DNA from: Candidatus Pacearchaeota archaeon
GTDB lineage: Archaea > Nanobdellota > Nanobdellia > Pacearchaeales > GW2011-AR1
Length of the DNA: 34,332 nucleotides
Assembly (NCBI GenBank): GCA_017609745.1
Contig: JAFCDK010000003.1
Span: 1 to 34,332 of the forward strand
Direction of reading: 5' to 3'
The position numbers and the translations under genes were made by a program. Below the pieces are notes generated by a model. It did not search any database, had not been told where the DNA came from, and saw nothing but the letters and a program-made list of their open reading frames with translations. This document shows positions 6,829-22,120 of this stretch, in pieces; position 1 is the stretch's first letter, and each line of letters opens with the position of its first letter.

Positions 6829-6879
6829 AAACAGAAAATTTCAGAGGAAAAGTTTTATATATATTTTCTATGTAATTAT

Positions 6880-7566
6880 ATGAAAAGAATAAGTTTAGTA
6901 TTGGGATTGATTATGTTGATTGGATTAGTGGTTTTTGTGAGTGCTTCTATGACTAAAATGGATACTGGGCAGTATATGGTTGAAATGCCTATTGAAAAAG
7001 GATGGAATATTCTTCCTTGTTTCTTCCCACAATATGAAGATCTTGAAATAAGTGAAATAAAAAAAGAAGATATTAAAGTAGTTTGGATATACCCTCCCCA
7101 AATAAAAGAGTATGTACAAGTTTTCCCAAAAAATAATCTTGATAATGTTCCTGAAAATGTTGGGAGATTTTTAGATGATGAACAGATGTTATCAGTAACT
7201 TCTTGTTGGGTTTATTCAAGTAAAATAGGAACTATAAGATATTCAACACCAGAAAATGTCCCTAATTTAAATGATAGAAAATTATTTAGTGGTTGGAATT
7301 TTATTGTAATTACTCCAAACATGATTAATCCGGGAGATGTTCTTCCTAAAGATGTTATTAAAATAGAAGATTTTTCTAGTGATTGTAATATCTTAAAATC
7401 TTATATTTGGGATTCTGAACATCAAGGATGGCAAGATATTTCAAATCAAGGTCAATTTTATAGTCGATCAGAGGGTATGGGTTGGGTAATTAAAGTCTCA
7501 GATGATTGTACTTTAGGTTCATCAGAAGAGGTAGGAGATGAAACCACCCCACCAACATTACCTTAA
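6880..7566 (+). CDS. Secreted 'GWN' protein A1, C-terminus TTPPTLP
   Basis: Signal peptide MKRISLVLGLIMLIGLVVFVSAS; shares GWN(I/L)L, GWNF(I/V), (D/N)CN and IKVSD(D/N)C(T/H)LGS with ORF 18694-19911. Confidence 0.75.
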   Translation: MKRISLVLGLIMLIGLVVFVSASMTKMDTGQYMVEMPIEKGWNILPCFFPQYEDLEISEIKKEDIKVVWIYPPQIKEYVQVFPKNNLDNVPENVGRFLDDEQMLSVTSCWVYSSKIGTIRYSTPENVPNLNDRKLFSGWNFIVITPNMINPGDVLPKDVIKIEDFSSDCNILKSYIWDSEHQGWQDISNQGQFYSRSEGMGWVIKVSDDCTLGSSEEVGDETTPPTLP

Positions 7567-7598
7567 TTAAATTAAAAAATAAAAAAGAGGAAAACAAA

Positions 7599-7742
7599 AT
7601 GAAAACATGGATATGGATTATAATAATTCTAATTATGATAGCAATTGCAATAGGAATTTATTTTTGGTTAAGTGGAAGTGGTGGTGGAATTCTTGGAGGG
7701 GGAAGTTCAATTCCAACACCACCTGCTTTACCTTCTGGATAA
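7599..7742 (+). CDS. Tiny single-TM protein S1 (47 aa) with C-terminal PPALP motif; not in the ORF track
   Basis: Hand translation MKTWIWIIIILIMIAIAIGIYFWLSGSGGGILGGGSSIPTPPALPSG; GAGG upstream; C-terminus matches the ORF at 19926. Confidence 0.75.
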   Translation: MKTWIWIIIILIMIAIAIGIYFWLSGSGGGILGGGSSIPTPPALPSG

Positions 7743-7782: not shown

Positions 7783-8076
7783 TTATTCTATCTCTTTTAG
7801 ATATTTTTCTAAATCTTTATAATCTTTTTTTCTGTCAAGAAAGCAGATAAGGATTATACTTGGCTCAATAACCACATAAATAAGACGTGTTTCTTTTGAA
7901 TGAATATTTAACCTAACTCTAAAAACTTTGGAATAGGATTTTGAGTAAATCCTTTTATATCTATAAGGATTTTGTTTTATTAGTTGGATTTTTTCATAAA
8001 TAATTCTTTTTGATTTTTCATCGAATTCTGAAAGTTGTTTATTAAAGTTATTTAAAGGGATTATTTTAAATTTCAT
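7783..8076 (-). CDS. RelE/ParE-superfamily type II toxin
   Basis: Small basic protein FNKQLSEFDEKSKRIIYEKIQLIKQNPYRYKR...FRVRLNIHSKETRLIYVVIEPSIILICFLDRKKDY; overlaps the upstream antitoxin-like ORF by 4 nt. Confidence 0.8.
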   Translation of the reverse strand: MKFKIIPLNNFNKQLSEFDEKSKRIIYEKIQLIKQNPYRYKRIYSKSYSKVFRVRLNIHSKETRLIYVVIEPSIILICFLDRKKDYKDLEKYLKEIE

Positions 8077-8330
8077 CCTAATAGAATTTTGTTCATCTCT
8101 TCTTCTGTAGAAAATTCTTTGTTTTTAATACTATGAGTTATTAAAGCGTCAATTAACTCAATTTCTTTCTCATTAAATGTTTCATCAAACTCACTTTCAT
8201 TAAATATTTTTTCTCTCATACACTCTGCTGCTAATTCTTGGATATTTCTGTAGCCATAATTCTTTGCAAACCTTGTTGCAGCTTCAGCTAATTCTTTGGA
8301 TATTTTAAGATTAATTTGTTGATTGCTCAT
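8073..8330 (-). CDS. Antitoxin with RHH-like N-terminus
   Basis: INLKISKELAEAATRFAKNYGYRNIQELAAECMREKIF; coupled to the RelE-like gene. Confidence 0.72.
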   Translation of the reverse strand: MSNQQINLKISKELAEAATRFAKNYGYRNIQELAAECMREKIFNESEFDETFNEKEIELIDALITHSIKNKEFSTEEEMNKILLG

Positions 8331-18641: not shown

Positions 18642-18693
18642 ATTCTTCGAGAAGAACCAATAGCTTTATAAAAAAGATTTGTTTGTATGAGTT

Positions 18694-19911
18694 ATGAAAA
18701 AGAGTTTAATTATTGGAGGGGTTGTTTTGGTAACTATTATTTTGGTTATGTTAGTGGGGGTTGTGTTGGCTAGTATGATTGAACTTGGTTCTGGAAGATA
18801 TAAAGTGGAAGTTAAGGTAAGAGAAGGGTGGAACCTACTTCAAGGATTTCATCCAGATTTAATTTCTACTGAAAGTCCAATTACTACTTCAAATATAAAA
18901 GCCGTTTTTATGTATTCCCCAGATTTAAATAAATATATTGAAATGTATCCTAGTTTTAAATTGCCTAGTGCTGGATTAGATCAAAATGATGAGTATTATG
19001 ATGATGCTTCCAGTGCTTATGCTTATTGGGTTTATATTGAAGATGTTGGAAATTTAAATAAATTAATTTATACAATAAAATTTGGAGAAGGGGATATTCA
19101 AATGAAAAAAGGATGGAATTTTGTTGGAATAAATTCTTTTATGACTATTGATGTAAATACTGCGAGTCCAGAAGAAGAGGAAAAATATACTTTAAACAAT
19201 TTTAAAGGAAATTGTAATTTTGAAAAAGTGTATCACTTTGAATCTGTTATTCAAGAATGGTCTCCTAATTTAGTAAATGATCATTTTATGAATGAAGAGT
19301 TAGATAATGCTGTTGCAGGGTTAGGAATATTGATCAAAGTCTCAGATAATTGTCATTTAGGTTCTGGTGGTTCTGGAGATATTGGGCCACCTGGGTTGCC
19401 TGGGGGGGATAATTTTGATACATATATAGGGGATTATATAATTCAGAAAGATTTTGGAGAGTTTAAGCATCTTGAGAGCAGGTTAAATTCTAATATCGCA
19501 GATGTAAGATATTATTTTCCAGATTATAAAGGGGGGGAACAATCAGGATATGAACTTAAAGGAACTTATGATGGACAATGGTATGCTATAGACCCAATTG
19601 TAGAGGTAGTAGTAGTAGAGTATGAGGATGATATAAGTTATGCTGCCTTTAATGATTGGATAACTCAATTACGCCCAGAATTAATTCCTTCTTATGAAGA
19701 TTCCTCAAATTTAGTGGAAGGAAGTAAATTAAGTCTAGTAACAACTAGTGAAGATGGAGATAGGATTTCTTATTTATGGGCAAGTAATGGAAAATTGATT
19801 TCAGTTGGTACTGATAGGTATGATTTAATTAGTGATCTTGATCTTGAAGATGATTTTTCCTCTTTACATGAGGCATATTTAAAAGTATACCCTTCCACAT
19901 TAGTTAAATAA
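18694..19911 (+). CDS. Secreted 'GWN' protein A2 with a PPGLPGG linker and extra C-terminal domain
   Basis: Signal peptide ending VVLAS; REGWNLL, KKGWNFVG and GLGILIKVSDNCHLGS match ORF 6880-7566. Confidence 0.78.
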   Translation: MKKSLIIGGVVLVTIILVMLVGVVLASMIELGSGRYKVEVKVREGWNLLQGFHPDLISTESPITTSNIKAVFMYSPDLNKYIEMYPSFKLPSAGLDQNDEYYDDASSAYAYWVYIEDVGNLNKLIYTIKFGEGDIQMKKGWNFVGINSFMTIDVNTASPEEEEKYTLNNFKGNCNFEKVYHFESVIQEWSPNLVNDHFMNEELDNAVAGLGILIKVSDNCHLGSGGSGDIGPPGLPGGDNFDTYIGDYIIQKDFGEFKHLESRLNSNIADVRYYFPDYKGGEQSGYELKGTYDGQWYAIDPIVEVVVVEYEDDISYAAFNDWITQLRPELIPSYEDSSNLVEGSKLSLVTTSEDGDRISYLWASNGKLISVGTDRYDLISDLDLEDDFSSLHEAYLKVYPSTLVK

Positions 19912-19925
19912 GTTAATATTAAAAA

Positions 19926-20105
19926 ATGGAACAACAAATACAACAAACAACAGGAAAAAAATCAAAGTGGTGGCTGTGGTTGATAATTTTAATTATTATT
20001 CTGATTGTCCTTGGTGTTGTGCTTTATTTTGTTTTAACTGGTGATGGAAGTGGGTTTTCTTTTGGTGGGAGTTCTATTCCTAAGCCTCCTGCACTTCCTG
20101 AATAA
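19926..20105 (+). CDS. Tiny single-TM protein S2 (59 aa) with C-terminal PPALP motif; not in the ORF track
   Basis: Hand translation MEQQIQQTTGKKSKWWLWLIILIIILIVLGVVLYFVLTGDGSGFSFGGSSIPKPPALPE. Confidence 0.8.
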   Translation: MEQQIQQTTGKKSKWWLWLIILIIILIVLGVVLYFVLTGDGSGFSFGGSSIPKPPALPE

Positions 20106-21937: not shown

Positions 21938-22120
21938 ATGGCACAACAAATGGCACAACCAACAATGCAACAAAAAGCAACACAGCAACCCGGACAATTG
22001 CCAGGACAGGCACCTAATGCTGTTCCAAAGAAAAAGTCAAAATGGTGGTTATGGCTGATTATTGTTTTAGTAGTAATTGCTGCAGGTGTTGGAGTTTATT
22101 TTTGGAGATTTGCAGGATAA
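21938..22120 (+). CDS. Tiny single-TM protein S3 (60 aa), Gln-rich N-terminus
   Basis: MAQQMAQPTMQQKATQQPGQLPGQAPNAVPKKKSKWWLWLIIVLVVIAAGVGVYFWRFAG; the KKSKWWLWLII block is shared with S2. Start trimmed from 21896. Confidence 0.75.
   Translation: MAQQMAQPTMQQKATQQPGQLPGQAPNAVPKKKSKWWLWLIIVLVVIAAGVGVYFWRFAG

Follow-up and report, generated by a model that had tools for sequence, protein, structure and literature searches.

The DNA window analysed here, a 34,332-nt stretch from a Candidatus Pacearchaeota archaeon, carries a cassette of two adjacent genes, A1 and S1. Its features are listed below, with genes and motifs taken from translation and the promoter-like and Shine-Dalgarno-like elements from reading of the sequence.

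6852–6867 (+): TATA-box-like element, putative promoter of the A1–S1 operon, about 27 nt 5′ of the A1 ATG
6880–7566 (+): A1, secreted; its features are two GWN half-repeats, Cys169/Cys210 and a terminal TTPPTLP (also from conservation over 30 homologues and AlphaFold)
7549–7563 (+): PPTLP tail of A1; P225 and P228 hardly vary among 30 homologues
7587–7590 (+): Shine-Dalgarno-like GAGG of S1, 8 nt before the S1 ATG
7599–7742 (+): S1, 47-aa single-transmembrane (TM) anchor protein with a predicted extracytoplasmic tail (also from homologues and dN/dS)
7719–7733 (+): PPALP motif, 2 residues short of the S1 C-terminus; all 16 S proteins compared keep its P, P, L and P

The initial annotation had described A1 as a signal-peptide protein with two GWN motifs and a TTPPTLP end, and S1 as essentially one TM helix plus a tail, and translation agrees with both descriptions. 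A1 is 228 aa long, starts with an N-terminal signal peptide and has GWN at residues 41–43 and 138–140, and S1 (MKTWIWIIIILIMIAIAIGIYFWLSGSGGGILGGGSSIPTPPALPSG) is composed of a single TM helix followed by the tail GGSSIPTPPALPSG. Since S1 has the GAGG site and the 32-nt gap behind A1 shows no apparent separate promoter, the two genes look like one operon. Directly 3′ of S1 there are two small overlapping genes on the opposite strand (7783–8330, −), which may be a RelE/ParE-type toxin-antitoxin pair, judged by size, overlap and sequence.

A second copy of the cassette is found at 18694–20105:

18664–18675 (+): putative TATA-box-like element 5′ of A2
18694–19911 (+): A2, 405-aa GWN protein extended by a C-terminal domain at about 19402–19908
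19387–19401 (+): internal PPGLP of A2, immediately 3′ of the GWN module
19926–20105 (+): S2, 59-aa single-TM protein ending in GGSSIPKPPALPE
20085–20099 (+): PPALP motif of S2

The recurrence noticed in the initial annotation thus holds for the pair and for its gene order, with a gap of 14 nt between A2 and S2, but not for the position of the A2 motif (PPGLPGG), which is internal rather than terminal, about 169 residues coming after PPGLP. The same genome has a third A–S pair (L003), located at an edge of its contig C24. The three A proteins share 29–36% pairwise identity and their S proteins 45–72%.

Further 3′ in the window, a 60-aa protein (21938–22120, +) ending in KKKSKWWLWLIIVLVVIAAGVGVYFWRFAG has a TM helix as in S2 and a Gln/Pro-rich N-terminus, and lacks the PPALP tail; it is a predicted tail-less relative of the S anchor. 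The extra domain of A2 has DYIIQKDFG at its start and HPSTLV/YPSTLV at its end, and by eye an apparent A2-type domain is also fused to the GWN module of the L013 A protein, at the opposite, N-terminal side, an arrangement that looks like shuffling of an undescribed domain.

Occurrence of the A–S pair

A partner of A was strictly defined as an ORF of 30–170 aa with a hydrophobic 18-residue stretch and an end in PPx[LIMVFT]P plus at most 3 residues. So defined, it adjoins A at 29 of 34 loci, compared with none at 46 control loci selected for PPxLP-coding DNA or S-like helices (Fisher p = 5e-17). The 34 A loci partly shaped the definition; the 10 A loci examined later did not, and the partner is present at 6 of them, or at 5 of 9 without L166, which was first reached via its S. 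Furthermore, 400 kb from A-bearing genomes, with 649 small TM ORFs, contain not a single ORF, whatever its kind, that has the tail motif at its end. These counts rule out a chance or low-complexity tail and support the membrane-anchored partner that the initial annotation had considered. The tail, on whose presence in homologues the idea of a pairing depended, is indeed found in them. That A and S form a conserved cassette is, in our judgement, virtually certain.

As for the misses, the neighbours at L190 and L191 are lipoproteins with degenerate tails (IPPPPSLN and APPSFG, respectively), the neighbouring lipoprotein at L128 is cut by the contig end, and a PPVLP-bearing neighbour at L196 is cut by the locus end. 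No S was found near A at L185, L127, L132 and L115, and one genome (G359, 86% complete) has S with no A detected. The mirror-tree correlation between A and S was weak and not significant (r = 0.17, p = 0.09). S lies upstream of A in some lineages and downstream in others, so the pairing is not explained by a leader or by readthrough.

The DNA pattern for GSSIPxPPALP gave 46 matches in 85,462 genomes, and all those that are in frame in a small TM ORF and no more than 2 residues away from its C-terminus belong to DPANN archaea, namely Pacearchaeota, Nanoarchaeota and related archaea, ruling out a tail widespread in bacteria. The upstream gene, where in view, usually encodes a GWN protein. In effect, this was the search suggested in the initial annotation. 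By profile search, 56 of the 382 class genomes sampled (about 14%) have A, as do 54 of 380 genomes of a phylum-level draw, where all the matches listed fall within the class. The same kind of search with S alone returned mostly tail-less TM helices, below about 40 bits. At L194, in a genome from another family of the class (G527), S is nearly identical to the S of the window's family, reflecting either recent transfer or bin contamination.

The S tail and the GWN module

A comparison of 16 TM-type S proteins shows that, of the exposed parts, the tail is under the strongest constraint, with P, P, L and P invariant and GSSIP nearly so. The linker that joins it to the helix differs in both length and sequence, and 1–2 residues follow the motif. 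S is under purifying selection, the opposite of which would have spoken against the small ORF, with dN of about 0.1 vs dS of 0.4–0.9 in close pairs and dN/dS of about 0.1–0.3 in the closest comparisons; together with the synonymous codon variation inside the motif, these values show that selection acts on the tail peptide itself. The anchor is a TM helix in 22 loci and a lipoprotein in 13, where inspection identified a lipobox with cysteine at +1 (VSGC in L118 and L015, LTGC in L119, LSGC in L122 and L193, ITAC and similar). As both types share one tail, it is the exposed peptide that is kept and not the anchor. With a lipid anchor, the tail is unambiguously on the outer side of the membrane, and most TM-type S proteins have an N-terminal Lys/Arg cluster, from which topology rules predict the same orientation; on these rules, the S tail very probably lies outside the cell.

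The initial annotation had also mentioned a processing signal. This is not favoured by the position of the motif after the anchor at the extreme C-terminus, by its retention with a lipid anchor, and by its repetition within single S proteins, where copies are split by linkers (two in L118, about five in L124 and three in L193). Such repeats fit a ligand unit, and we regard the tail as probably a ligand rather than a processing signal. An assembly tag, the other use of the motif put forward there, is possible, A bearing the same tail.

In the lipoprotein S of six loci (L121, L125, L131, L189, L190 and L191), we noted by eye a second, DDVF-like element, [IL][DE][DE][VIL]F, 8–12 residues before the tail; it occurs alongside large A proteins. 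About half of the TM-type S proteins have KRG or KKG before the helix, as in a pilin-type class III signal peptide. A type IV pilin-like identity of S was rejected, as this [KR]-G processing site is missing from S1, S2, L009, L014, L062 and L126, and lipoprotein S cannot have it. The weak Pfam matches obtained with S, poxvirus and SNARE families among others, reflect nothing more specific than a TM helix, and the 'PPALP' of the literature, the TM4 motif of P5B ATPases, is unrelated.

Over 30 homologues, the near-invariant positions of A are G41, W42, N43, Y78, W110, Y112, G138, W139, N140, C169, W184, K205, C210, P225 and P228. Proline-rich peptides are usually bound via Trp/Tyr; the conserved Trp/Tyr of A could also be core residues instead of binding residues. 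A PPxLP-type motif follows the GWN module and in some proteins also precedes it. The module occurs alone or fused, as in an M64 peptidase (L091), with CARDB/PEGA repeats (L127), and in dockerin-containing and Cys-rich proteins, and this variety fits a shared adaptor with the PPxLP peptide as its ligand. Between the GWN-M64 peptidase gene and its S gene (L091:3473–3925, a locus also numbered L117) there is a protein with an S-type TM helix and a DSDGG Cys-rich domain in place of the tail.

The initial annotation knew of no named family that explains the pairing, and our searches concur: A has no match by sequence in Pfam, NCBIfam or PDB, the module has none above the Pfam cut-off in the 30 homologues, and neither S1 nor S2 has one above that cut-off. 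No description of the A or S families was found in the open-licence papers searched. The AlphaFold model of A1, built with the 30 homologues, has 102 residues at a pLDDT of at least 90 and a pTM of 0.77, the tail being flexible at about 53. Foldseek returned no fold match for its core (best E 0.42 in PDB and 0.048 in BFVD, with a probability of at most about 0.2). A and S are thus candidates for two new protein families, and the modelled A core is a candidate new fold.

Proposed function and known systems

We propose that A and S could be a two-component surface-anchoring system, in which the GWN module of A binds a docking peptide displayed at the membrane by S, a reading to which we give even odds. 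S would sit in the membrane through its N-terminal TM helix, or through a lipidated cysteine in other lineages, and would expose outside the cell a flexible linker with one or more PPx[hydrophobic]P peptides at its end. Secreted A would bind such a peptide through its double-GWN module, and would thereby be kept on the cell surface together with any fused domain. That the module acts as the receptor is, taken by itself, an equally balanced call. At L118, a natural in-frame A–S pair modelled with AlphaFold after reading the stop codons as Gly for this purpose only, the last 8 residues, including the terminal PPTLP, reach a mean pLDDT of 70 vs 43–54 for the preceding linker. Around the first S motif (280–284) most values are below 50, and the own tail of A has values of 62–71, similar to the last S motif. 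The rise at the S tail may be a weak sign of docking; pLDDT alone is not proof of contact.

As A and S bear the same kind of tail, and that of A is as conserved as that of S (P225 and P228), both could instead be recognised by a third, unlinked partner, such as an S-layer component, a peptidase or a ligase, and be co-displayed or co-processed rather than mutually bound. We consider this unlikely: the inspected cassettes have no third gene in common, S is already membrane-bound and needs no further anchoring, and in the 400 kb searched a recogniser would have only A and S to serve.

The two-component system could also be extended, with the PPxLP-type tail of one A filling the module of a neighbouring A and S remaining as the basal anchor, although we hold such head-to-tail chaining to be rather doubtful. 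Taken further, A would polymerise into a fibre via its own C-terminal tails, with S just nucleating or capping the filament at the membrane. In many stand-alone A proteins the last cysteine is indeed soon followed by PPxLP or PPxIPN as the exact C-terminus, S tails mimic that of A, and a multi-motif S could seed several chains; however, the motif is internal in large A proteins and in A2, and the A tail is low in AlphaFold confidence, which leaves the fibre improbable. Least of all do we expect S, small, TM and co-operonic with A, to assist secretion or folding, or to inhibit A at the membrane, instead of being a structural anchor, since most A proteins have no recognised enzyme domain, notwithstanding one peptidase fusion, and one type of anchor can replace the other whereas the exposed tail does not change.

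DPANN archaea are mostly uncultivated and mostly presumed to be host-attached, and how their surfaces are built and decorated is poorly known. A hitherto undescribed, DPANN-wide display system is conceivable, somewhat short of even odds, in which the double-GWN new fold would be a proline-peptide receptor, and interchangeable TM or lipid mini-proteins with one to five PPxLP peptides would clip or chain peptidases, adhesins and structural proteins to the surface of host-living archaea. The pair offers two candidate new families, a candidate new fold and a directly testable peptide–receptor interaction, involving a peptide of about 14 residues and one secreted protein. The tail also provides a searchable marker for surface proteins missed by annotation, S being often shorter than 60 aa.

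Among known systems, LPXTG sortase and PGF-CTERM archaeosortase substrates likewise have a short conserved motif near the C-terminus of surface proteins. Their signals consist of motif, TM helix and basic tail and are then cleaved, whereas S has an N-terminal TM and the motif as its exposed end; a C-terminal sorting signal is ruled out by this topology, as the motif comes after the helix in every S protein, with 0–3 residues behind it. Cohesin–dockerin systems resemble the A–S pair in holding modular secreted proteins on the surface by a shared docking module and in their multivalent scaffolds, but the S ligand is a peptide of 5–10 residues and not a folded dockerin. A has no cohesin match in Pfam, and one A homologue has a dockerin elsewhere in the protein.

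In the csc clusters of Gram-positive bacteria, CscA, the WxL proteins CscB/CscC and the mini-LPxTG protein CscD are proposed to form a surface complex (PMC1534035). The likeness lies in an operon that encodes secreted proteins together with a surface-anchored peptide protein of unusually small size; CscD, however, is sortase-attached and has no conserved exposed peptide, which in S is the conserved part, and neither A nor S matches a WxL or LPxTG family in Pfam or NCBIfam. In animals, secreted acetylcholinesterase is held by a proline-rich anchor, PRiMA ('proline-rich membrane anchor') or ColQ (PMC12322807, PMC10382678). As in PRiMA, a small single-TM protein with an exposed proline motif would here tether a secreted protein, the binding being inferred. 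The S tail differs in being terminal, short and sometimes repeated, and its anchor may be a lipid. No sequence relation is expected, and searches of A and S against PDB, Pfam and NCBIfam showed no homology to PRiMA, ColQ or cholinesterase. By the features tested, the A–S pair is a member of neither group; by analogy, it would work most like PRiMA/ColQ with acetylcholinesterase, while being organised like the csc clusters.
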